From Comamonas suwonensis (lineage in GTDB: Bacteria; Pseudomonadota; Gammaproteobacteria; Burkholderiales; Burkholderiaceae_C), in assembly GCF_012844455.2 (NCBI RefSeq), contig NZ_JABBCQ020000004.1, positions 240,979 through 304,978 on the forward strand: DNA of 64,000 nucleotides. Reading direction: 5' to 3'. The notes under the pieces are model-generated. The model saw only the letters and a list, made by a program, of their open reading frames with translations. It ran no database searches and was not told where the DNA came from. Position 1 is the stretch's first letter, and each line of letters starts with the position of its first letter. The translations under genes and the position numbers were made by a program. Positions 52,808-63,928 of the stretch are shown here, piece by piece.

Positions 52808-53398
52808 TTACCTCCCAAGCAACTGGCGGCAGCAGCTTATCAGCGCGCCCAGGAAGCCACCCAGAAGCCCAAACCAATGCGCCTGGGTGACGATGTATCC
52901 ACCGATCAGCTTTTGTTCAAGCGGATCAGGGCCAGCCCAGGACTGCCAGCTCAACCAGCCAATGACAGCTAGCAGAACCATGGCAGCCGTGGCGTCGCGC
53001 TGAAGCAGTACCGGTGGCAAAAGCATCCAGACTATCAATCCGTAAAGCACACCGGATAGACCCACATAGTCATGGACCTGCGGTGAAATAGTCCACAGCA
53101 GCAGCGAGACCAGAACACTGAGCGCTGCCATGCGCATCAACAGTCTCCGCCCTGTCCAGGTGGCATCGGCCAAAGCGCAGCACAGCAACAGGCCGCAGGC
53201 ATTGATTCCTGTGTGAGGCCAGCTCAGATGCAGCCCGTGCGCCGTCAAGGCTCTCCACCATTGCCCGGCAGACAGTGCTTGCTCCTCATAACGTAGCACC
53301 CCACGCCACGACGGGGGCAAGGCCTGCAACACCGCCACCAACATGCACAGCGCCAGCGCGCACTGCCACAGTGCAACAGGACGGACTATGGGCTTCAT
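52808..53398 (-). CDS. Rhombosortase-like rhomboid protease
   Basis: This 196-residue membrane protein has about six helices. The rhomboid Ser motif YVGLSGVLYGLIVW (GxSG) and the catalytic His in TQAHWFGLLGGFLGAL form the dyad, with an upstream WRALTAHGLHLSWPH loop. The short size and motif set fit rhombosortases, which cut GlyGly-CTERM tails of secreted proteins. Two proteins with such tails are encoded 2-6 kb upstream in the same strand run. Its ATG at 53398 overlaps the DUF454 stop (ATGA); an upstream extension of 46 codons is unlikely. Confidence 0.82.
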   Translation of the reverse strand: MKPIVRPVALWQCALALCMLVAVLQALPPSWRGVLRYEEQALSAGQWWRALTAHGLHLSWPHTGINACGLLLCCALADATWTGRRLLMRMAALSVLVSLLLWTISPQVHDYVGLSGVLYGLIVWMLLPPVLLQRDATAAMVLLAVIGWLSWQSWAGPDPLEQKLIGGYIVTQAHWFGLLGGFLGALISCCRQLLGR

Positions 53399-53829
53399 GC
53401 CACAGGCTCTGGTCTCAGCCATAGCCAAACCAGCACGCAGGCCATGACCGCCAGTGCCAATCCGGTCAACCATGGTTTTACGGACAGATGGAAAATCAGA
53501 GCGGAGCTGAACAACATGCTTGCGCTGGCAGTCCATTTGACGCGGCGGCTCACCTGGCCGCCCTCATCCCAGTTGCGCAATATGGGGCCGAACATGGAAT
53601 GCGCATAAAGCCAGCCGTGAAGTCTGGGCGAGCTGCGCATGGCGGCCCATGCCGCCATCAGGATAAAGACGGTTGTTGGCATACCGGGCACTACGGCACC
53701 AATCAAGCCCAGCAGCACGCACAGCACGGAAAACGCCATCAAAAGACAGCGCAAAGGCAGGGAGAGAGGCCGTGGAATGCCAAGCTTTTCTGCAGCTGGC
53801 GTTTCGGGCGAGGAAGACGGATCTGTCAT
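53395..53829 (-). CDS. DUF454 (YbaN-like) inner-membrane protein
   Basis: This 144-residue protein has a disordered start and then LLMAFSVLCVLLGLIGAVVPGMPTTVFILMAAWAAMRSSPRLHGWLYAH, the DUF454 core with the VPGMPTT motif, and two further helices at about 102-138. The function of YbaN proteins is not established. It is coupled to the rhombosortase gene by a 4-bp overlap and starts 3 bp after gspN. Confidence 0.87.
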   Translation of the reverse strand: MTDPSSSPETPAAEKLGIPRPLSLPLRCLLMAFSVLCVLLGLIGAVVPGMPTTVFILMAAWAAMRSSPRLHGWLYAHSMFGPILRNWDEGGQVSRRVKWTASASMLFSSALIFHLSVKPWLTGLALAVMACVLVWLWLRPEPVA

Positions 53830-53832
53830 GAG

Positions 53833-54699
53833 TCAAGGAAGCTGAGGGCGCACGATGCTCCAAGCAATATCTCCGCCACGGTTTCCTATGAGGTTCAATA
53901 TATTGGCCAAGGCTGCATCTTGCCCAGGTTCTGCCTGAGCCTGACCCCGAAAGCGCCAATGACCTGCAAGCTGTTGGCCTTTTCCACTCAGTCGCAGTGC
54001 ACCTTGCAATGTACCCAGCTCAAACCCCAGGCCGGATCCCGATTGTGCACCCTGAGCGTCGAGAACCAGGCGATAACTGCCCAAGGGGCGCAAGGTGGAA
54101 AGCCGGGATGAAAGCGAGAGCGCTTTCATCTCAAGACTGCCGCGCATGGATGCCGCCTCCAGATTTTGTGACCATTGAAGAAAAGACGAGGTCAGCTGCA
54201 TGCGGCCTTCCAGGCTCAAGGTATTCCAGGGAGTCCCCAAGCCCACAAGCACCTGGGCTGGCAGCTGCCATTCCAGACCGGACAACTGAAACACCTGCTG
54301 AAAAGGCCGCCAGACCAGCTGCAACCCGGGCTTCTGGCAGCAGGCATGCTCGATCAAAGCGCCAATTCCCCAGCCACGGTTTTGCGAGCCTTGATTTGGT
54401 ACCCCAGTGTTCCAGCCCATCTGCAGCCGCCAGCTCAATCGGCCCGGCAGGGCTTGAGCATCACGGCTGCCTGCTCCACCAGCCAGAACCAGCACCGCAG
54501 AGCCATTCCAGATTGAGCCGCGCGCGCCCTGCAGCAAGACTCTCTGCCCGCTTGCCAACGCGACGGCATCGACAACCCAGCGCGCAGGAAAAAACACCAG
54601 CAGACACAGCAAGCCGCCCACCAGTGCACCAGCCAAAGCCCAACGCCAAGGTGCGCCGGCCATGGGCAGCTTTGGCCTTTCAGTTCTGCGCAATCGCAT
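53833..54699 (-). CDS. gspN: Type II secretion system protein N (GspN)
   Basis: This 288-residue bitopic protein has one N-terminal membrane helix (residues 20-40) after a basic start (MRLRRTERPKLP). The periplasmic domain reads VVDAVALASGQRVLLQGARGSIWNGSAVLVL, the typical GspN opening. GspN is an accessory inner-membrane component of type II secretion. The core gsp genes are not in the window, so this copy is detached. It lies 12 bp after the heme oxygenase gene and 3 bp before DUF454, in one transcript with the rhombosortase. Confidence 0.87.
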   Translation of the reverse strand: MRLRRTERPKLPMAGAPWRWALAGALVGGLLCLLVFFPARWVVDAVALASGQRVLLQGARGSIWNGSAVLVLAGGAGSRDAQALPGRLSWRLQMGWNTGVPNQGSQNRGWGIGALIEHACCQKPGLQLVWRPFQQVFQLSGLEWQLPAQVLVGLGTPWNTLSLEGRMQLTSSFLQWSQNLEAASMRGSLEMKALSLSSRLSTLRPLGSYRLVLDAQGAQSGSGLGFELGTLQGALRLSGKGQQLAGHWRFRGQAQAEPGQDAALANILNLIGNRGGDIAWSIVRPQLP

Positions 54700-54711
54700 G
54701 CCGTCTATTGA

Positions 54712-55359
54712 CTAAAGCGCTGGCTCACGGGCCTCGCTGCGATCAACGTCCTCGCTTTCAACAGAGCGAGAGAAATGCTGCTCCAGCAAGCTGCCAAAAC
54801 GGTCATACGCAGCATTGGCACCAGCGATCACCTGATCTTGAATCGCAGCATCACCGAGTGCGGGTGCATCCAGTGATTCCACAAAGGCACGCCAGGCCAG
54901 AGCTCGCCCCCGAGGGTAGGCCGCCAGATTGCGAGCGCCAAATGTTTCCGACAGGCCCAGCCGCTCCTTGGCTTCCTTGAACAAAAAGGCCGCGCCCAAG
55001 GTGGAGCCTTCCGACACATACAGCCAGCCCAAAGCCTCGGGCATGCCAACCCCTTCACTGGCCAGCGCGCTTTGAGGCACAGCAACTCCCAGATCCGCCA
55101 AATCTGCCAGCGAAGCCTCTTCACGCCCACGAGCCTCCAGATCAGGGACCACAGTCTTCACAGCGGCGTCATGAAACAAGTGCTCCACATCGCGTTGGAA
55201 CAGGTACTGAGCCGCCACAAAGCGCGCGTAGTGACCAAGATCCGCAAATGGATTGCACTGCTCCATCAACACATGCATGCGCTCATGCTGCTGGGCTGTT
55301 TCGGCCCTGAGGCGCTGAGACAGTCTGGAGCCGCTCACGGGGTCGGTTTGAGCATTCAT
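54712..55359 (-). CDS. Heme oxygenase (BphO/HemO-like)
   Basis: This 215-residue protein has RLSQRLRAETAQQHERMHVLME with the proximal heme ligand His25 and the distal-helix region ALGWLYVSEGSTLGAAFLFKEA. The family opens heme to biliverdin, CO and Fe2+. The preferred start is the ATG at 55359 (MNAQTDPVSG). It sits downstream of the TonB-dependent heme receptor in the same direction, consistent with release of iron from imported heme. A role in bilin supply for phytochrome is possible, but no phytochrome gene is here. Confidence 0.9.
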   Translation of the reverse strand: MNAQTDPVSGSRLSQRLRAETAQQHERMHVLMEQCNPFADLGHYARFVAAQYLFQRDVEHLFHDAAVKTVVPDLEARGREEASLADLADLGVAVPQSALASEGVGMPEALGWLYVSEGSTLGAAFLFKEAKERLGLSETFGARNLAAYPRGRALAWRAFVESLDAPALGDAAIQDQVIAGANAAYDRFGSLLEQHFSRSVESEDVDRSEAREPAL

Positions 55360-55452
55360 AAGATTTCCTTGCTTCAATTCAATGAGTGAAGCGGCCCCCA
55401 AGGCATTGCATCGGCGTGCAACAAACCGTGAAGACCGCTTGGCCGTTCCGCC

Positions 55453-57381
55453 TCAGTGTTGGGACGATGGGGATACTCGGCGGCGCGTCCAGGCCAGAAC
55501 GGCCAGCGGTGCCAGCAGCAGAGCGCTCAATGGACCGCCACCGCCGCCATTGCTGTTGCCGCTGTTATTGCCGCTGTTGTTGTTGCCTGTGCTGCCGGTT
55601 CCACCAGTTCCCGTGTCTGGCTTTGTCACGGCGGTGGCCTGCACGCTGACTTTGCTAGTTACAGGCTGGCCGTCGTTCTGACTGCTGCAAGTCAAGGTGT
55701 AACTGTTCTCTCCCTCGGCTGCCAGCACCACCGGCACCTTGCTGGCACTGGTTTGCTGCGCACCACTCCACGCGCCACTGGCACTGCAGCTGTTGGCCTG
55801 GCTGGTAACCCAGCTCAGCTCAATGGTGGAGCCCACGGCAGCCGTGGCCACAGAGGCCGTCAACGGCTGGCTGAATGCAGCAATGGGCAGGGGCACGTCG
55901 ATGGAGAAGATCGTGCCATTGCCGGGCGCGCTCGTTGTCGTCGTCACCGGTTGGCCATTACCACCGGCGTTGGCTGCGCCATAGAGCTTCTGCACACCGC
56001 CCACGACCGCGCCAGCGCTCAGGCCGGTCAGGCTTCCGCCTTCGCTGCCCATGTCGAAACGATGCAGGACTTCGTAGCTGTCGTCCGCGTGATCGGCAGT
56101 GGCCCCAATCTTGATGCGGTACAGAGTTCCTGCGCCATACGGCGTGCCCAGGCCGGTTTTGGGCGCGTTCATGGTCGAACCATCGGTGGCCGTCGTTCCG
56201 TAGATATTGCCGTCTGCGGCCAGTACCAGCGGACCGGATGGAGCGTTACCGTCGGCCTGCGCAGTGCCATCGAGCGCCACAGTGTCAGCGCCGCGGAAAT
56301 AGTGCACGACGGCAAAGCTCTTGGGGTCCGATTTCTTCACGCGCCAGATCGTTCCGCCGTAACGGTTGTCCATTGCATTGCCCGCCGTGGGCGCATTGAA
56401 TTGCGTCGTGCCGTACAACCATTCACCGACCTCGACCATGCCCACCACACGCGCGCCCTTGGCCGTTGGCTCACCATCGCGAGCTCGCATAAAGGTGTGC
56501 AGCAGTTCGACCTTGGACGAATCCAGCGTACCCTTTCCGGCAACGCCTTCCTCGATGGCCGCCGTACTCAACTTGACCAGCGTTCCCACCGAGCGCCCCT
56601 GGTAGTCCGTGGTAAGCGTACTGTCCACCACGCCATTGGCTGATACTCCGGTCAGCACATACAAGGCCTGGTCCTTGCTGCTCCACACACTGGCAACCGG
56701 CGCACCGCCCTTGAGATGCAACTGCTTGTTGCCTTGTTGCTCCTCGTAATCGCAGAAATTCAGCACCTTGGAGTAGCTCTGATCGGCATTCATGCGCCAC
56801 AGAATATTGGCCGTGGTAGTCGCACCGCAAGCCGATGCCGATTCACCCGATCCCATATAGAGATTGCCTGCGGTGTCGAGGGCCATGGTTCCCAGTGGCT
56901 TGAAGCTGGGTGCGGGCAGCGCCACAGCCTTGCCGCCCTTGATACTGAAGACTGCGCCTGCAGTTTCCCAGGGAACGCCACCCGGTGGGACGGCACCATT
57001 GCCAGCAACAAAAAAGCCACCATCGGCCGTAGGCACCAGTGGGGTCGAGCCCTGGTAGATGCTGCCCAGCAGTTCGAAGCGGTGGTTGGCACCCGTGGTG
57101 TCGAGGCCATAGACCGTACCCTGGCCCCAGAAGGCAGGCGCAACGGCCGTCGCGCCCAGGAAAGTGTGACCATAGAGGCGGCCATCAGCAGCCAGCACCG
57201 GTGGCACGGCCGGCTTGGCACCACCGTTGTTGATGCCGCCAAACTTGTGCAACACCGTGGGCTTGAAGGCGGCTGGCAGCGTCTGTGCCACGGCATGCGC
57301 CAAGGGCAGAGCCAGTGCCAGAGCGGGAACTGCGACACGTGCAACACGCCGCAGAGCGGGTTGGATTGAATTCATGGCCAT
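55453..57381 (-). CDS. Secreted GloVer-repeat protein with GlyGly-CTERM-like tail (paralogue 2)
   Basis: This 642-residue protein has a Sec signal (VAVPALALALPLAHAVAQ) and about five Gloeo_Verruco (GloVer) repeats, e.g. LAADGNIYGTTATDG ending GAGTLYRI. An Ig-like domain with paired Cys follows (TIELSWVTSQANSCSASGAW to YTLTCSSQND), then a Gly/Asn-rich linker. The C-terminal tail is GGGGGPLSALLLAPLAVLA followed by WTRRR. The tail (Gly run, hydrophobic helix, basic end) fits rhombosortase substrates. The ATG at 57381 follows AGGA. It is a paralogue of the next upstream gene. Confidence 0.82.
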   Translation of the reverse strand: MAMNSIQPALRRVARVAVPALALALPLAHAVAQTLPAAFKPTVLHKFGGINNGGAKPAVPPVLAADGRLYGHTFLGATAVAPAFWGQGTVYGLDTTGANHRFELLGSIYQGSTPLVPTADGGFFVAGNGAVPPGGVPWETAGAVFSIKGGKAVALPAPSFKPLGTMALDTAGNLYMGSGESASACGATTTANILWRMNADQSYSKVLNFCDYEEQQGNKQLHLKGGAPVASVWSSKDQALYVLTGVSANGVVDSTLTTDYQGRSVGTLVKLSTAAIEEGVAGKGTLDSSKVELLHTFMRARDGEPTAKGARVVGMVEVGEWLYGTTQFNAPTAGNAMDNRYGGTIWRVKKSDPKSFAVVHYFRGADTVALDGTAQADGNAPSGPLVLAADGNIYGTTATDGSTMNAPKTGLGTPYGAGTLYRIKIGATADHADDSYEVLHRFDMGSEGGSLTGLSAGAVVGGVQKLYGAANAGGNGQPVTTTTSAPGNGTIFSIDVPLPIAAFSQPLTASVATAAVGSTIELSWVTSQANSCSASGAWSGAQQTSASKVPVVLAAEGENSYTLTCSSQNDGQPVTSKVSVQATAVTKPDTGTGGTGSTGNNNSGNNSGNSNGGGGGPLSALLLAPLAVLAWTRRRVSPSSQH

Positions 57382-57421
57382 TGACTTTCCTGGTGTAAAA
57401 AACGATGAGAAAAGGACACGC

Positions 57422-59560
57422 TCAACCGAGCGTCTGGGAGTTGCGTGCTGCGCAGCGCTGTGTGCGGCGGCGGTAGACCGCCAAGCCCGCCAAGGGAGCC
57501 AAAAGCCACAAAGCCAAAGGCCCGCCGCCGCCATTGCCGTAGGAGACCTGATTGCCGTCTTCGGCGGTTGCCGGGGTGCTGACATAGACCACGGCGGCAG
57601 CAGAAACCTGAGCGCCTGCTGCGCCGCCTGCCACATCACAGGTCAGGGTGTAGCGATAAGTGCCTCGGGCCGGACGTAGCTCGACGCTGCCCTGTGTGGC
57701 CACAGAGCCCACCCAATCACCTGCTGTCGATGCCGCCGTGCATTGCTTGGTGTTGTTGGTGATCCAGGTCAGCGAGACGGTTTCTCCAGCCTTGATCTCA
57801 CCAGCGCTGGCGACCAGGCTGGCGTCAGCACGCGGGGTTTCTGCTGAATCCACCGCGAGCTGGAAAACGGTGCCGAAATCAGTGGCTACGGTCAGGGCCG
57901 CACTGTTCAGATAGTGGCCGCCCATGGCCGTCACGCCATACAGACGGCCGTCAGAGCCAGTGCGCACGCCTACGGGTTTGCGACCATCTTTGCCGGAGAA
58001 GGAGTGCACCAGCTCAAAACCGCTTTGCGTCACCTGGCCGTCGCCATTCACCACCATGCTTGCCGGCCGGATACGGTAGACCGCACCGCAGCCGACTTCG
58101 GAATTGGCCGCAGCGCTGGACGGCACGCACAGATTACCCCCACCGGACATGGTGGTGCCATAGATAGCACCATCCGCCCCCAGAGCCATGGGGCCGCGCG
58201 GCGTGGCACCGTCGGCATTGCTGAAGGTATGGACGATCTGCAAAGGCCCGCCCGCCTTGGCAATGCGGTACAGTGCGCCATAGGGCTTGGGGCCGTCGTA
58301 ATAGGGCAAATCCTTGATGTAGCTCAGCGTGGCGCTTGGTGCCCACTTGCGCGAGCCGCAGGACGGGTTGTCGCGCGTGACGCTCTTGATCCAGGTACCG
58401 GTGAGGCTGCTGTTGCCATGCACATAGCAGTCGCCCACCGAAGTCCCTCCGTACAGATAGCCATCGCCGCCATCAATCAGCGAAGACAGGCTGTGCTCTT
58501 GCCCAGAGCCCATGGTCCGATTGGTCACGTCCCCGCCGGCCGTCACCCCCGCTTCGTAAGGAATGCCGCTGGGATAGAGCACAAAGCCTTCGCTGTTGGC
58601 GTTGTCATGGATGTTGATTTCGCCTTCTGCCAACGTGAAGGTATGCAGCACGGCAAAGCCCGAGCCGTCGGCTGCATTGATGCGGTAGAGCGTGCCCGTG
58701 GGCGTGGTTGTGGCGGTCGGCGTCGATGGTGCCAGCGGCAATCCGCGGTTGTAAGCGGTCACGCCATACAGAACACCATCCTTGCCCAGAATCAGGTCGT
58801 TTGCCGTCTGGCGCATGCCTGAAGGCCCGACGGAAAACTCATGCAGCGTGCTGACGCTGCCGGAGGCGATATGGAGCTTGAAAATTCGCCCCTGCCCCTT
58901 GGGCCCCTTGTCGATGCCATACAGGTTGTCCTGCGCATCAATGACCAATGCGCCATTGGGCGAGTACAGCTGGCCGCGCGTACCCTGCACCAAGGCGGAA
59001 TTGGCACCGTCATAGTCGGTGCGGACAATGACGCCCAGACCCACGGCTGGTGAATAGGAGATATCGCTGGGCTTGTTCTTGCCGGCGTTCCTCTCGCCAT
59101 TAATGGTCGTCATTACCGCATACAGGCTGCCGTCAGATGCGCGCACCGGCGTGCCCGAGATGCGGCCGTGCAGATCATTGGCCGGGTTATAGGCTACGCG
59201 CTCGTAGACCGAGACACCGGCTCGCATGGTGTACATGCCAAACGCGGTGTACATCTGCGAGGGCAGAACTGATGGCCCGCCGCCGTTGAAACCACCAAAC
59301 AGATAGCCGGCGCTTGAACCAGGGCGCACTGCATACAAAGGCGGCGAACTGGGGTAACGGGCTCCGGGCCAGCCAATGGTTCCGTCAGGCGTGGTCACGT
59401 CATCCCCTGCAGGGCGCAGCGAGGTGAGCGTGGTCAGCTTCACATCGCCAACCTTGGTCTGGGCAGCGGCAGGCAAGGCAGCGCACAGCGCGCCGACGGC
59501 CAGGCAGGCAGCCACGCTGCGACGCCATGGTCTGTCATGGGGAACGGAAAAGGACATCAT
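57422..59560 (-). CDS. Secreted GloVer-repeat protein with GlyGly-CTERM-like tail (paralogue 1)
   Basis: This 712-residue protein has a signal peptide (PWRRSVAACLAVGALCAALPAAAQ) and about six GloVer repeats, e.g. IDAQDNLYGIDKGPKGQGRIF, LGADGAIYGTTMSGGGN and GSDGRLYGVTAMGGHYLNS. An Ig-like domain follows (TVSLTWITNNTKQCTAAS to YRYTLTCDVAGG). The tail is GNGGGGPLALWLLAPLAGLA followed by VYRRR. It starts 55 bp after the heme-receptor stop, implying cotranscription. The repeats resemble beta-propeller blades; a ligand is not known. Confidence 0.82.
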   Translation of the reverse strand: MMSFSVPHDRPWRRSVAACLAVGALCAALPAAAQTKVGDVKLTTLTSLRPAGDDVTTPDGTIGWPGARYPSSPPLYAVRPGSSAGYLFGGFNGGGPSVLPSQMYTAFGMYTMRAGVSVYERVAYNPANDLHGRISGTPVRASDGSLYAVMTTINGERNAGKNKPSDISYSPAVGLGVIVRTDYDGANSALVQGTRGQLYSPNGALVIDAQDNLYGIDKGPKGQGRIFKLHIASGSVSTLHEFSVGPSGMRQTANDLILGKDGVLYGVTAYNRGLPLAPSTPTATTTPTGTLYRINAADGSGFAVLHTFTLAEGEINIHDNANSEGFVLYPSGIPYEAGVTAGGDVTNRTMGSGQEHSLSSLIDGGDGYLYGGTSVGDCYVHGNSSLTGTWIKSVTRDNPSCGSRKWAPSATLSYIKDLPYYDGPKPYGALYRIAKAGGPLQIVHTFSNADGATPRGPMALGADGAIYGTTMSGGGNLCVPSSAAANSEVGCGAVYRIRPASMVVNGDGQVTQSGFELVHSFSGKDGRKPVGVRTGSDGRLYGVTAMGGHYLNSAALTVATDFGTVFQLAVDSAETPRADASLVASAGEIKAGETVSLTWITNNTKQCTAASTAGDWVGSVATQGSVELRPARGTYRYTLTCDVAGGAAGAQVSAAAVVYVSTPATAEDGNQVSYGNGGGGPLALWLLAPLAGLAVYRRRTQRCAARNSQTLG

Positions 59561-59615
59561 GTGAATCTCGAGCAAAGCAATGGGGGGATGAGGTCTGACA
59601 TACGCAGACCGCGAA

Positions 59616-62219
59616 TCAGAACGTGATTGACAAGGTTGCAGTGGCCGTGCGACCGGGGCCAATGAAGTAGCTGCCGCCCTGCATTTCGGAATAGTTCAGG
59701 TCGCGCAGGTTGTTGATGGCAACACGCAAGATGGCATTCGACGAAAGCTCGTAACTGGCCCACAGGTCGAACAGCCGCCAGGACTTCTGGTTGTAGCGCT
59801 CGCCCTGTGCCGTCCACACACTGCTATTGGTGCTGGGCGCCTGAAAGCGCATGCGACCGCCGAGGGTGAGTTTTTTGTCCAGCAACCGCACGCCGGCGCT
59901 CAGGCTGGCGGTTTTCTTGGGTGGCAGCACATACCAGATGTTGGCGTCACCCGCCTCGCCCAGATTGTTGTGGGGGTAGCCCGTCAGGCTGCCCAGAGGA
60001 AAGGAGTCATACCCGCCTTTGCCGGTATTGACGAGCATGTGGGTGTAGTTGAGGCTGCCGAAAACGCGGCCGTTGTCATAGTCGCCCTGCAGCTCCAGAC
60101 CTTTGCTGCGAAAAGGGTCCTGCAGGTTCACATAGGCATACGGCCCGAGCAAGCCACCGCCCGCAGTGTCTATGGGCGACATGATGCGCGCCAGGGTCAC
60201 ATAGTCCTTGACCTTGTTGTTGAACCAGGCAGCCTTCACGCGCAGCTTGTCGCCGCGACTGAGAACGTCGTCAAACATGCCGTTGGCACCGACTTCCCAA
60301 TTGCGCGAACGCTCGGCACGCAAATCCGGATTGGGGTAGTAAGGGAAGAGACTGCCCGTGTGCTGGCCCCACATCAGCGCCTCGGTCAGCGCTGGCGGGC
60401 GCATGCCACGCCCTGCGCTGGCAAACAGCTGCACAGACTCTATGGGTTTGAGCGCGAGTGCCAGACGGGGCGCAAACGCACCATCGTTGCGATCCGCCTT
60501 GAAACGGGTGTACAAGGCCGTGGCAGGCGGGCGCACGCCTGGAGGATTGATGAGAGAGCCCACACGCATGCGTCCATCACCCTGCATGCCATACCAGTCA
60601 TAGCGCAGGCCACCGGTCAGCTCCAGCCAGTCGCTGTGCATCCAGTTGACTTCACCGAACAGGCTGGCCACGGTGCGCTTGCCTTTGGGGGTAGCGCCCG
60701 AATACAAAGCCGTCGTACCGGCGTCTGCGCCCACGGACAGAGCCTGCGCCTGCGGATCGGTCCAGTCATGAAAGAACTCCGCTCCGGTCTTGACCAGTGC
60801 CGCATCCTTAGGCCCCCACTCAAGGCGGGAGGTGTTCTCCAGCGTGCCGCCCACAGTACTGGTCTGGTAACGCAGATCGTAGGCGTATGAGTCCAGCGTG
60901 CCACCCGCATAGCGGTGGGCCTGGTTGCGGGTGCGGGTGTAGTAGAGGCTGGACTTGAGATCCACCAGGGCGTTTTCAGACAGACTCCAGGTGTAGTTGG
61001 CCAACAAGGTGTCGGTGCGCACATGGTTAAGAATGCCGCCGCCACTGGCCGACTGTGGCTTCTCGCCAAACTTCGCATCCATGCCGATATAGCTGAGCTT
61101 GATCTGCTGCTCGGGCGCAAAACGCCAGCTACCCTTGAGCAAGACCGAGGTCTGGTCTTGTGAGGTCAGCTGGCTCACGCCATGCGTGGTTGCATCCTTC
61201 TGGCTGGAAGCCGATTCACGTCGGCCTTTTTCAAACTCGCCCACTTTTTTTCGACTGACCAGCATCACCATATCGACGTCTTCGCTGGGTTTGAGACCCA
61301 GGGCCGCACTACCGGCAAAGTGATAGCCATTGCTGCCGCTGGAAAGGTTCAGGCGAGCGCCCCGGGTCTTGTCTTCCTTGACCAGATCGTCTGCCTCCAA
61401 CGTGCGAAAGTTGACGACGCCGGCAATCATTCCCGCGCCGCCCACTGTGGAGGTCGGACCTTTGGAGATGTCCACTCCGCCGATCATTTCCGGGTCCAGG
61501 TAGACTGAACCGTTGGAGCCATGGCCGCTTTGCTGGTAGTTCTGGCGCGTGCCGTCAATCATGACGTTGACGCGCCCGAAGTCCTGCATGCCGCGAATAT
61601 TCACGGAAACGCCCGGGTCCCTACGGCTTTGCGAGGTGTAAACCCCGGGTACCTCGGCCAGCACATCGGCGGTATTGCGTGGCGGCAGTCGGTCAATTTC
61701 TTCGCGCGTGACCACGGCCACCGAGCCGGCCGTCTCGAACACCTGCTGGCGCGCATCTTTTTTGGCGACCACCGTCACCTCGTTCATATTTCGCTCCAGC
61801 GCACCGCCCGCTGCCCCCGCTGCATTTTTCTGAGCGCGAGCCGGTGTAGGTCGAATGCGCCATGCGCCCTGCCCTTCACTTTGGGCTTGCAACGGGTGAC
61901 TTTCCAGCAGCGAATCCAGCACGCCCTGAACCGTGGCCACGCCCTTGAAGCCTCGACTTTGCTTGCCTTGAACCAGTTCAGGATCGAAGGCGATCATGAC
62001 CTGTGCCTCTCGAGCCAGCTGGTTCAACGCCGTCTCCACGGAGGCCGACGGAATCGAGAACGAGCGCAATGCCTTGTCGGCGGCATGGGTGGCAGGCTGG
62101 GCATTGGCAGCCAACGGCGTCAGACCCGAACCCAGACTGACAGCCGCAGCGGCCATGGCGAGCACGGTAGGACGCCAATAGGCAGGAGCACGCATGCGCG
62201 GCAAACGACGGGAGGGCAT
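59616..62219 (-). CDS. TonB-dependent heme/hemoglobin receptor with STN signalling domain
   Basis: This 867-residue outer-membrane receptor has a signal peptide to about residue 40, a secretin/TonB N-terminal (STN) domain at about 52-122 (FSIPSASVETALNQLAREAQVMIAFDP) and a TonB box near NEVTVVAKKD (146-155). A plug domain and 22-strand barrel follow, ending in a C-terminal Phe. The heme-receptor segment ASAGRGMRPPALTEAL followed by PYYPNPDLRAERSRNWE corresponds to the FRAP-NPDL region. STN plus the upstream FecR and sigma genes indicates cell-surface signalling. The ATG at 62219 follows AAAGGA. Confidence 0.93.
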   Translation of the reverse strand: MPSRRLPRMRAPAYWRPTVLAMAAAAVSLGSGLTPLAANAQPATHAADKALRSFSIPSASVETALNQLAREAQVMIAFDPELVQGKQSRGFKGVATVQGVLDSLLESHPLQAQSEGQGAWRIRPTPARAQKNAAGAAGGALERNMNEVTVVAKKDARQQVFETAGSVAVVTREEIDRLPPRNTADVLAEVPGVYTSQSRRDPGVSVNIRGMQDFGRVNVMIDGTRQNYQQSGHGSNGSVYLDPEMIGGVDISKGPTSTVGGAGMIAGVVNFRTLEADDLVKEDKTRGARLNLSSGSNGYHFAGSAALGLKPSEDVDMVMLVSRKKVGEFEKGRRESASSQKDATTHGVSQLTSQDQTSVLLKGSWRFAPEQQIKLSYIGMDAKFGEKPQSASGGGILNHVRTDTLLANYTWSLSENALVDLKSSLYYTRTRNQAHRYAGGTLDSYAYDLRYQTSTVGGTLENTSRLEWGPKDAALVKTGAEFFHDWTDPQAQALSVGADAGTTALYSGATPKGKRTVASLFGEVNWMHSDWLELTGGLRYDWYGMQGDGRMRVGSLINPPGVRPPATALYTRFKADRNDGAFAPRLALALKPIESVQLFASAGRGMRPPALTEALMWGQHTGSLFPYYPNPDLRAERSRNWEVGANGMFDDVLSRGDKLRVKAAWFNNKVKDYVTLARIMSPIDTAGGGLLGPYAYVNLQDPFRSKGLELQGDYDNGRVFGSLNYTHMLVNTGKGGYDSFPLGSLTGYPHNNLGEAGDANIWYVLPPKKTASLSAGVRLLDKKLTLGGRMRFQAPSTNSSVWTAQGERYNQKSWRLFDLWASYELSSNAILRVAINNLRDLNYSEMQGGSYFIGPGRTATATLSITF

Positions 62220-62369
62220 TGCAAAGTCCTTTCATGAAAGCCCCCGCATCTGACCAACCGAACGACGAGTCTGTTTGAGGCGCTACTGTTAACAAGGACG
62301 AAGCAGTTCGCCAAACCCGTAATGTTTTTGCAAAATTTTTTGGCGATGCCTGTGCCAAGCCCTGCGAGT

Positions 62370-63362
62370 TCAGCCTCGCGGCACCAGCGTGACCCAATAA
62401 CGCGTGCGTCGGCGCAGCTCTATAGGCCAGGTTTTTTGCAGCAGGTCCAGGCTGCGCTCGGTGTCCTTCAAGCTGAAGACCCCAGAGATGCGCAGCTGCG
62501 CCACCCGCTCGTCGCAGGCAAGATGACCGAGCCGGTAACGACCCAGCTGCTCCAGCACCGCAGCCAGCGGCATGCTGCGCGCCACCAGCACGCCGTCCGT
62601 CCAGGCATCACTGTCACCATCACTGGCTTCCAAATCATGTACCTGACTGGCATCAAACCAGGCTTGCTGGCCTTGGCGCAGAACCCGAACCTCGGAGGAT
62701 CCATGAGGCCTTAGCTCCACCGCATCGCTTTGCACCTGCACCTGGGTGCCGTCTGCCTGCAGATGGGTCTGAAACCGGGTACCCAGCGCCCTCACCTGGC
62801 CATGCAGCGTCTGCACCACCAGGGGTCGATAGCGCTGTGCGCTGGCATCTGTGCCCGAGGTCAAGACGATTCGCCCCTTGATCAAGACCAGACGACGTTC
62901 GTCCGCATCAAAGCGCAAATCCACGGCCGTCGCGGTATCCATCAGCAGCACCGAGCCGTCGGTCAGCACCACGCGGCGCACTTCACCCACACCGGTGCGC
63001 AGATCGGCCAACATGGCGCTCTCCGACCAGGGCTGGCGCAGCAACAGCGCCGTACCTCCAACCCCCACGGCAACGCTCAGCAAACCCATGGCTTTGCGCC
63101 GCCCCATATGCTTGCGGGCCACATCCATGGTTTGCTGCGCCAGGGCCGAGGGAACGTCCGGCATGGCGGCAAAACGACCTTGAATGCCCTGCAGCCGCTC
63201 CCAGGCCAGGGCATGTTCGGGGGCTGCCTCTCGCCAGCGCAGGCATTCGTCCCAGGCCCCGGGCGAAGCGCTACCGGATTGCAGCCTCACCATCCAGGCA
63301 ATCGCCTGCTGCACCACGGCGGGCGAGGGCTCATTCGGCGCGGCGCGGGCAAAACCGCTCAT
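62370..63362 (-). CDS. FecR-family anti-sigma/sigma-regulator
   Basis: This 330-residue bitopic protein has an N-terminal cytoplasmic segment with WMVRLQSGSASPGAWDECLRWREAAPEHALAWERL (DUF4880/FecR N-terminal), a membrane helix at about 94-112 (AMGLLSVAVGVGGTALLL) and a periplasmic FecR domain (DLRTGVGEVRRVVLTDGSVLLMDTATAVDLRF). It passes the receptor signal to the sigma factor. Its ATG overlaps the sigma stop (ATGA). Confidence 0.93.
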   Translation of the reverse strand: MSGFARAAPNEPSPAVVQQAIAWMVRLQSGSASPGAWDECLRWREAAPEHALAWERLQGIQGRFAAMPDVPSALAQQTMDVARKHMGRRKAMGLLSVAVGVGGTALLLRQPWSESAMLADLRTGVGEVRRVVLTDGSVLLMDTATAVDLRFDADERRLVLIKGRIVLTSGTDASAQRYRPLVVQTLHGQVRALGTRFQTHLQADGTQVQVQSDAVELRPHGSSEVRVLRQGQQAWFDASQVHDLEASDGDSDAWTDGVLVARSMPLAAVLEQLGRYRLGHLACDERVAQLRISGVFSLKDTERSLDLLQKTWPIELRRRTRYWVTLVPRG

Positions 63363-63877
63363 GCCGCAGCATCCAGATAAACGATGCGATAGCAGTGGGC
63401 AAAGGCTGTGGCCATATATTTTTCAACGGAGCTCAAGGACACGCCCAGGCGGGCGGCCACTTCCTTGTAGGTCAGACCGTCCAGTTGCGCCAGCAAGAAG
63501 GCGCTGCGTGCGCGAGCCCCCAGGCCGTCCAGCATGCGATCAATCTGTTCCAGAGCCTGCAACACCATGGCGCGCTCCTCGGGTGAAGGCGTCACCGGCT
63601 CGGGCATCAGCGCCAGCGTCTCAAGGTAAGCGCGCTCCAGCGACATGCGTCGGCAATGGTCGATGAGCACGCTGCGCGCCACGGTGGCGAGAAAAGCGCG
63701 CGGCTCCTGCAACTCTGGCGGGCACTGTTTGAGAAGGCGCACAAATGTGTCCTGTGCCAGATCTGAGGCCTCCTGCACGCAGTGCACACGCCGCTGCAGC
63801 CAATGCACCAGCCATCCATGGTGGTCGCTATAAAGCGTCTGTAAAAGCGAAGAGGAACTAGCGTGCGCACCAGCCAT
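63359..63877 (-). CDS. ECF sigma factor, FecI/HurI-like
   Basis: This 172-residue protein has sigma-70 region 2 (LYSDHHGWLVHWLQRRVHCVQEASDLAQDTFVRLL) and region 4 (RSAFLLAQLDGLTYKEVAARLGVSLSSVEKYMATAFAHCY). Iron-starvation sigma factors of this class drive their cognate TonB receptor gene. A Fur-box-like palindrome lies 37 bp upstream of its ATG. It is the first gene of the heme operon. Confidence 0.93.
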   Translation of the reverse strand: MAGAHASSSSLLQTLYSDHHGWLVHWLQRRVHCVQEASDLAQDTFVRLLKQCPPELQEPRAFLATVARSVLIDHCRRMSLERAYLETLALMPEPVTPSPEERAMVLQALEQIDRMLDGLGARARSAFLLAQLDGLTYKEVAARLGVSLSSVEKYMATAFAHCYRIVYLDAAA

Positions 63878-63913
63878 GGCTCAGGATTTCCCTAGAGTGT
63901 TCAGCAACATTAC

Positions 63914-63928
63914 TGAGAATCGTTCTCA
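63914..63928. promoter_or_regulatory. Fur-box-like palindrome upstream of the sigma gene
   Basis: TGAGAATCGTTCTCA has 6-bp inverted arms around TCG and continues into flanking T/A matches, close to the core of betaproteobacterial Fur sites. Its location upstream of an iron-type ECF sigma gene supports Fur repression in iron-replete cells. Confidence 0.75.

Follow-up and report, generated by a model that had tools for sequence, protein, structure and literature searches.

The 64,000-nucleotide stretch of Comamonas suwonensis DNA analysed here (assembly GCF_012844455.2, contig NZ_JABBCQ020000004.1, positions 240,979 to 304,978; hereafter the window) carries on its minus strand, at positions 52808–63877, a cluster of nine genes which is a real, conserved operon. 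The genes encode an extracytoplasmic function (ECF) sigma factor, a FecR protein, a TonB-dependent heme receptor with an STN domain, two GloVer-repeat proteins designated GloV1 and GloV2, a heme oxygenase, a GspN, a DUF454 protein and a rhombosortase. We propose, with a probability of roughly 0.55, that this is a heme-uptake operon in which the operon's own rhombosortase cuts the predicted propeller proteins and gives them a lipid anchor, its own GspN passes them to the type II secretion system (T2SS), and they capture heme or heme proteins at the cell surface for the TonB receptor. The proposal draws on the gene content, order and conservation of the operon, on a separate GspN clade, on the tails of the GloV proteins and on the T2SS genes; the propeller and immunoglobulin (Ig)-like folds are models. 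Judged by sequence, the operon joins known parts in a new way and adds one new element, the rhombosortase-linked GspN clade, and its function is predicted. It is a heme-receptor operon which brings its own predicted surface-sorting machinery.

Transcription would begin with the FecI-type ECF sigma factor (63359..63877; PRK12528, 204.5 bits, cut-off 184), followed by the FecR-type anti-sigma and sensor protein (62370..63362; PF04773 and PF16220 (DUF4880)) and the heme receptor (59616..62219; TIGR01785, 499.8 bits, cut-off 316.85), the STN signalling domain of which (PF07660) covers residues 75–124. The receptor model above its cut-off, the STN domain and the ECF/FecR neighbours are thus all present, as in heme receptors with surface signalling. 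GloV1 (57422..59560; TIGR03803, 88.8 bits, cut-off 44) comprises a signal peptide recognised by eye, a GloVer beta-propeller, an Ig-like domain and a GlyGly-CTERM tail, and GloV2 (55453..57381) is a second GloVer protein with an Ig-like domain and such a tail. Downstream lie the heme oxygenase (54712..55359; PF01126, 74.6 bits, cut-off 23), the second GspN of the genome, belonging to the rhombosortase-linked clade (53833..54699; T2SSN PF01203, 70.7 bits, cut-off 29.6), the YbaN-like DUF454 protein (53395..53829; PF04304, 118.3 bits, cut-off 35.1) and the rhombosortase (52808..53398; TIGR03902, 127.2 bits, cut-off 84), which starts with an ATG overlapping the DUF454 stop codon. The rhombosortase shows the GxSG serine and the catalytic histidine as GLSG and a later AH, and both GxSG and AH also occur in seven homologues. 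Measured from the likely starts, the intergenic gaps in transcription order are −4, 150, 55, 40, 93, 12, 3 and −4 bp, the two overlaps joining the ECF/FecR and DUF454/rhombosortase pairs. The preliminary description of this DNA, made without database searches, had reported about nine genes on one strand with short gaps; all were found where it had placed them, its gaps of 55, 40, 93, 12 and 3 bp match ours, and the curated family models agree with its gene identities, GloV2 being a near miss with 43.9 bits against the TIGR03803 cut-off of 44. The contig ends at the window end, upstream of the operon.

All nine genes recur on one strand and in unchanged order in C. testosteroni ATCC 11996 and JL40, in Variovorax boronicumulans and in Variovorax UMC13 and OK212. 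A comparison of the window with two C. testosteroni strains gave ratios of nonsynonymous to synonymous substitution (dN/dS) of 0.06–0.22 for each operon gene. A chance cluster or drift is ruled out by the gene order kept in these five genomes together with the dN/dS values.

The tails of the two GloV proteins would make them cargo of the rhombosortase. In a six-frame search of the C. suwonensis genome with the GlyGly-CTERM model TIGR03501 (cut-off 15.5 bits), five matches were obtained, and only those of GloV1 (19.0 bits) and GloV2 (18.8 bits) exceeded the cut-off. The GlyGly-CTERM-like tails that had been ascribed earlier to the GloVer proteins pass in this six-frame search, but in whole-protein hmmscan GloV1 stays under the cut-off (14.2 bits) and GloV2 is not listed. 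By eye, a tripartite tail of GNG(G/S), a hydrophobic stretch and a basic end is present in all 34 best-scoring GloV1 relatives (P0001–P0034, of which P0001 is the window's own). In 11 further genomes, all eight GlyGly-CTERM matches above the cut-off fall in GloV genes: both tails pass in each C. testosteroni, and only one does so in Comamonas sp. BIGb0124 and in every Variovorax (three genomes). A metagenome-assembled genome (MAG) of P. wautersii has no GloV tail above the cut-off and one match elsewhere below it, and four congeners have none. A conserved cysteine near the signal peptide, as an N-terminal lipobox would have, was not found in 29 aligned sequences.

An AlphaFold2 model of GloV1 (predicted local distance difference test score, pLDDT, 82.6) consists of a beta-propeller, an Ig-like domain and the tail; the Ig/PKD-like beta-sandwich between propeller and tail is predicted at 57566..57850 (minus strand), and the Ig-like part of GloV2 aligns with that of GloV1. 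GloV1 has no sequence match to any solved structure, its Ig-like domain alone has no Foldseek match at E ≤ 0.001, and neither GloV protein has a Pfam match at E ≤ 0.1, the HasA family (PF06438) included.

The Foldseek matches include propeller lectins and integrins, and one may ask whether the propellers recognise a ligand other than heme, such as a polysaccharide, the surface of a host or prey, or a different porphyrin or corrinoid, their only tie to heme being the shared iron-responsive operon. A contig scan with a profile built from three aligned GloV1 proteins bears on this point. It returned 17 loci, 10 of which lack heme-operon genes, as such a role would predict; these 10 are, however, only 27–34% identical to GloV1, several lie on short contigs, and no other operon gene was found in them at E ≤ 1e-3. 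Seven loci encode close relatives, and in all seven a heme-uptake gene stands beside GloV, which makes a non-heme ligand quite unlikely. Our count of gene order used these seven loci and left out the 10 with only distant GloVer matches. Matches to an HlyD query were ignored, as this query was a long open reading frame partly outside the frame of the gene and gave many spurious matches.

The operon-borne GspN is distinct from the canonical one. Two GspN proteins are encoded in each of the six genomes with the nine-gene operon and one in the other 10 of 16 genomes. Contig C3 of C. suwonensis carries the T2SS operon, in which the canonical gspN accompanies gspD, M, L, E, F and G (assigned by Pfam); the gspN of the window is located outside this gsp operon, in the heme operon. 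A midpoint-rooted tree of 22 GspN proteins placed the eight that adjoin a rhombosortase or share its operon in one clade with a support of 100/100, and the other 14 on the opposite side. Members of this clade include the gspN product from the end of the T2SS operon of BIGb0124 and the only GspN of the P. wautersii MAG. Where the Comamonas and Variovorax genomes of the clade also have a canonical copy, it falls among the 14 others. Because the eight linked proteins form a clade of their own, the tree points to an old, specialised GspN which has stayed with the rhombosortase and has replaced the canonical copy in two genomes. A recent gspN duplication within each genome was rejected, since the operon copies form one clade.

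These results also bear on the idea that GspN, DUF454 and the rhombosortase are passengers which serve the general T2SS and the envelope rather than the GloV proteins. We know of no role for DUF454, and in BIGb0124 the rhombosortase stands apart from the heme genes, both of which would suit passengers. Against this, GloV1 and GloV2 provide the sole GlyGly-CTERM matches above cut-off in the C. suwonensis genome, the T2SS operon still has its canonical gspN, and the GspN of the heme operon belongs to a separate clade. Moreover, among 12 genomes examined closely the rhombosortase scored above cut-off in all eight with GloV and in none of the four congeners without it, and we consider passenger genes very unlikely. 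A T2SS gspD was found in each of the eight GloV genomes.

The association of rhombosortase and gspN was followed in a drawn set of 200 genomes of the family, where TIGR03902 scored above cut-off in 73 and PF01203 in 171. Sixty-six of the 73 have a listed GspN, missing rows having been filled from a second GspN search; the seven without a listed PF01203 match were left out. No more than 5 kb separates rhombosortase from gspN in three of the 66, namely C. suwonensis, BIGb0124 (G022) and the P. wautersii MAG (G150), which are exactly those with GloV. Co-location was thus seen in 3/3 genomes with GloV and 0/63 without (Fisher p 2e-5, kinship being ignored; G022 and G150 share a genus label and differ in layout). 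A general habit of rhombosortase genes to stand beside gspN was rejected by the same count of 3/66.

Five control rhombosortase loci (L035–L039) show a different neighbourhood. A pattern search found a protein with a GlyGly-type tail beside the rhombosortase in L035–L037, the single one tested being a GH10 enzyme, and about 4 kb away in L038 and L039, where the one tested, that of L038, is an M14 carboxypeptidase. When the nine operon proteins and six T2SS proteins were searched against these loci by tblastn, the rhombosortase alone matched. From these controls it follows that a rhombosortase paired with its cargo is the usual arrangement, and that its pairing with GspN and heme uptake is seen only in the GloV group. 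One observation runs counter to the control pattern: L038 (8530–17948) holds the end of a TonB-type receptor gene about 8 kb from the rhombosortase, perhaps a second pairing of rhombosortase and TonB receptor.

A rhombosortase tree of 36 rows, comprising the best 30 TIGR03902 matches and six rows from other loci, separated into two remote clades of 14 and 22 rows, all above the TIGR03902 cut-off. The clade of 14, which holds the window's enzyme, contains the eight GloV genomes, in each of which gspN adjoins the rhombosortase or belongs to its operon, and six further rows (G071, G177, G122, G175, G069 and G132) whose genomes have a GspN gene, although not within 5 kb. As the remote clade of 22 rows also exceeds the cut-off, the TIGR03902 threshold may let a second group of rhomboids through in this family, and the count of 73 genomes includes a possibly different group.

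Two genomes arrange the same components differently. In Comamonas sp. BIGb0124 (L049; L041) ECF, FecR, receptor, GloV1, GloV2 and heme oxygenase genes are kept together, and the rhombosortase gene is located apart from them, convergent with gspN at the end of a T2SS gspD-E-F-N cluster. In the P. wautersii MAG, one contig (L090, 48–10282) carries gspD-E-F (assigned by Pfam) directly followed by ECF, heme receptor and GloV2 genes, with no FecR match, and another (L051) carries genes for HasA (PF06438, 63.2 bits), GloV1, a type I exporter (HlyD), heme oxygenase, DUF454, a DUF423 protein and GspN and a convergent rhombosortase gene. On the latter contig (107–8135) the GloVer gene has hasA on one side and the genes of the HasA type I exporter on the other. 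The GloV and heme genes thus remain tied to rhombosortase, GspN or T2SS genes across three different layouts. The preliminary description had named a clade-wide survey without conserved neighbours as one outcome that would speak against it; the neighbours proved to be conserved in Comamonas and Variovorax, though the operon is rare. Its interpretation, in which heme and iron signalling switches on both a cargo and the helpers for sorting and secreting it, is supported in its genomic core and gains from this conservation, from the three layouts, from the HasA neighbour and from the Fur-like sites described below.

In the Has system, the HasA hemophore leaves the cell by type I export and returns heme to HasR, which is controlled by HasI and HasS. 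The operon shares with it the ECF/anti-sigma pair, an STN heme receptor and, in prediction, an extracellular heme protein; it differs in that the GloV proteins would use the T2SS and that HasA has no match in C. suwonensis, and the P. wautersii MAG has both HasA and GloV. GloV1 and GloV2 might be released hemophores themselves, freed by the rhombosortase cut or by a second protease before they return to the receptor. The position of GloV1 between the genes for HasA and its exporter in the P. wautersii MAG fits such a role, and so does the distribution of HasA, which at E ≤ 0.001 was found in one of the 12 genomes searched and neither in C. suwonensis nor in the other genomes with the nine-gene operon. 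Release has a precedent in VesC, which is freed by cleavage in a linker according to the available part of the report (PMC13393428). On the other side, the operon retains its gspN paralogue in 6/6 genomes, and GspN was reported to be required by lipoproteins, whereas soluble T2SS substrates do without it (PMC12802150). We therefore regard released hemophores as unlikely and prefer surface-anchored propellers.

Expression of the operon would respond to iron. A Fur-like operator, not assigned to a strand, lies at 63909..63927 with a palindromic core at 63915–63927, about 31 bp before the sigma factor start; the interval of the preliminary description (end at 63928) had closed on this palindrome. 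It agrees with a typed-in Fur consensus at 13 of 19 positions, a score reached by 2 of 300 base shuffles. Fur-like sites with 12–14 matches out of 19 precede the sigma factor gene in all eight loci examined, the window included, where 0–8 of 300 shuffles were as good. When iron runs short, the hold of Fur on the sigma/FecR pair would be lifted. The receptor, once loaded with heme, would pass a signal by way of its STN domain to FecR and the sigma factor, and operon expression would rise.

The proposed route of the propellers is modelled on known systems. The signal peptides of GloV1 and GloV2 would take them across the inner membrane, where the C-terminal helix would hold them. As has been proposed for VesB, the rhombosortase would cut at the glycine run and leave a lipid-type modification at the C-terminus. 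The GspN of the separate clade would then shield the modified protein or hand it to the T2SS, as proposed for Acinetobacter lipoproteins, with the Ig-like domain likely serving as T2SS signal as in VesB. Once displayed, the propellers would capture heme or hemoproteins and deliver the heme to the receptor in the manner of the lids BtuG and XusB, and the heme oxygenase would free the iron.

The Vibrio cholerae route of RssP, GlyGly-CTERM proteins and T2SS, as described in the accessible text of the VesB papers (PMC6219818, PMC13393428, PMC12369372), shares with the operon a TIGR03902 protease, a tail of glycine run, hydrophobic stretch and basic end, an Ig-like domain immediately before this tail and the presence of a T2SS. 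In contrast to it, the cargo here consists of propellers from a heme operon instead of serine proteases, the genes for enzyme, cargo and GspN stand in one operon, and regulation is predicted to be of the iron type. The GspN-dependent export of T2SS lipoproteins such as InvL of Acinetobacter and PulA of Klebsiella, insofar as the available sections describe it (PMC12802150), likewise has a GspN family protein beside T2SS cargo, lipid-anchored by prediction in our case. InvL and PulA are N-terminal lipobox proteins, whereas the GloV proteins lack a conserved N-terminal cysteine and have a C-terminal tail instead, and the GspN of the operon is a second copy from a clade of its own outside the gsp operon. 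As in Bacteroides, where the vitamin B12 lid BtuG and the ferric enterobactin lid XusB are discussed in the accessible text (PMC10404256, PMC13142918), a beta-propeller is encoded beside a TonB transporter whose substrate is a tetrapyrrole or an iron complex; BtuG and XusB are N-terminal lipoproteins, however, and heme binding by GloV1, which matches no solved structure in sequence, is predicted by analogy. The Slam-dependent HphA/HphR/HsmA proteins of the hemO locus of A. baumannii, to judge from the sections available (PMC8560813), present a heme oxygenase locus with a receptor, an extracellular helper and its own export factor. There the export factor is Slam, in place of rhombosortase and GspN, and HphA is not a propeller; a Pfam search confined to the nine operon genes found no Slam domain among them.

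A link of rhombosortase loci to heme or GspN was not found described in our literature search, which left most subscription journals outside, and in this literature the earlier statement that no described system joins these parts holds. It needs a qualification, because Haft and Varghese (PMC3237569) had already reported in 2011 that C. testosteroni KF-1 has a pair of targets close to its rhombosortase. The part of their paper available presents the pairing of rhombosortase and cargo as usual; its main text contains neither heme nor TIGR03803 (0 occurrences each) and notes no GspN link. The role of GspN was unclear until a paper of December 2025 tied it to N-terminal lipoproteins, which in its accessible text also states that V. 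cholerae has GspN and no confirmed lipoprotein T2SS effector (PMC12802150). The same paper mentions rhombosortase once, in the reference list. Shewanella oneidensis is another bacterium with GspN (PMC12802150), and a paper on its nuclease ExeM refers to rhombosortase (PMC6085458). The literature search found no paper on DUF454 with heme oxygenase and nothing useful on heme in Comamonas.

Several observations weigh against surface-anchored heme capture. The operon is rare: with a 29-sequence profile GloV was found in 3/399 genomes of the family and, in one case weakly, in 2/399 of the order (the C. suwonensis genome counted in both), a GloV1 relative at E ≤ 1e-8 occurs in 5/200 family genomes, two of them weak, and four congeners lack the operon. 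The GlyGly-CTERM model scores the tails at its border, so that one of two GloV tails passes in the three Variovorax and BIGb0124 and none in the P. wautersii MAG. Such a tail does not ensure display either, because VesC is mostly released according to the available part of the work (PMC13393428), and within the accessible portions of the VesB literature no test of GspN on GlyGly-CTERM cargo was found, EpsN/GspN being absent from three of the four VesB papers and confined in the fourth to a legend and a whole-operon deletion. The modelled propeller fold is compatible with many functions; among the 50 structural matches listed, 8okv stands at rank 43 and the VesB Ig domain is absent, an absence which decides nothing. 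The heme-linked rhombosortases do not form one demonstrated clade: the tree needs two changes, two other rhombosortases (L008 and L010) are placed among the heme-linked ones, and the grouping appears in only 6% of bootstraps. Finally, BIGb0124 has no second gspN and its rhombosortase is distant from the heme genes, and co-transcription is therefore not obligatory.

Tentatively, and at slightly less than even odds, we suggest a new class of heme capture by propeller lids fixed to the surface at their C-terminus, delivered by a dedicated rhombosortase and a specialised GspN subfamily from within a heme operon. If this is true, GspN serves C-terminally lipidated GlyGly-CTERM proteins too and not lipobox proteins alone, which would explain why gspN is retained in bacteria without known lipoprotein T2SS cargo. 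The operon, which pairs one GspN clade, a rhombosortase and exactly two GlyGly-CTERM proteins, would allow a clean genetic test of GspN with C-terminally anchored cargo, and one branch of the GloVer repeat proteins gains a specific predicted role.

Three further observations concern the GloV genes. A search for the Kerstersia and Pigmentiphaga relatives P0022, P0025 and P0028 gave no such match in the 399 family and 399 order genomes, and two plasmid matches from it, 23–26% identical, are to other GloVer proteins. GloV1 and most of GloV2 (window positions ~55900–59400) show 90–94% DNA identity to C. testosteroni JL40 (L046), compared with 68–88% in the rest of the operon, and synonymous divergence (dS) from JL40 is 0.31–0.38 in the two GloV genes and 0.83–1.30 in the other operon genes. 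Because identity is higher and dS lower in this part than elsewhere in the operon, this looks like an exchange of cargo genes between species. P0041, a protein of 498 residues from an Aquabacterium MAG, combines pieces of a heme receptor with the start of GloV1 and a GloV2-like tail, and represents a decayed or misassembled copy of the operon.

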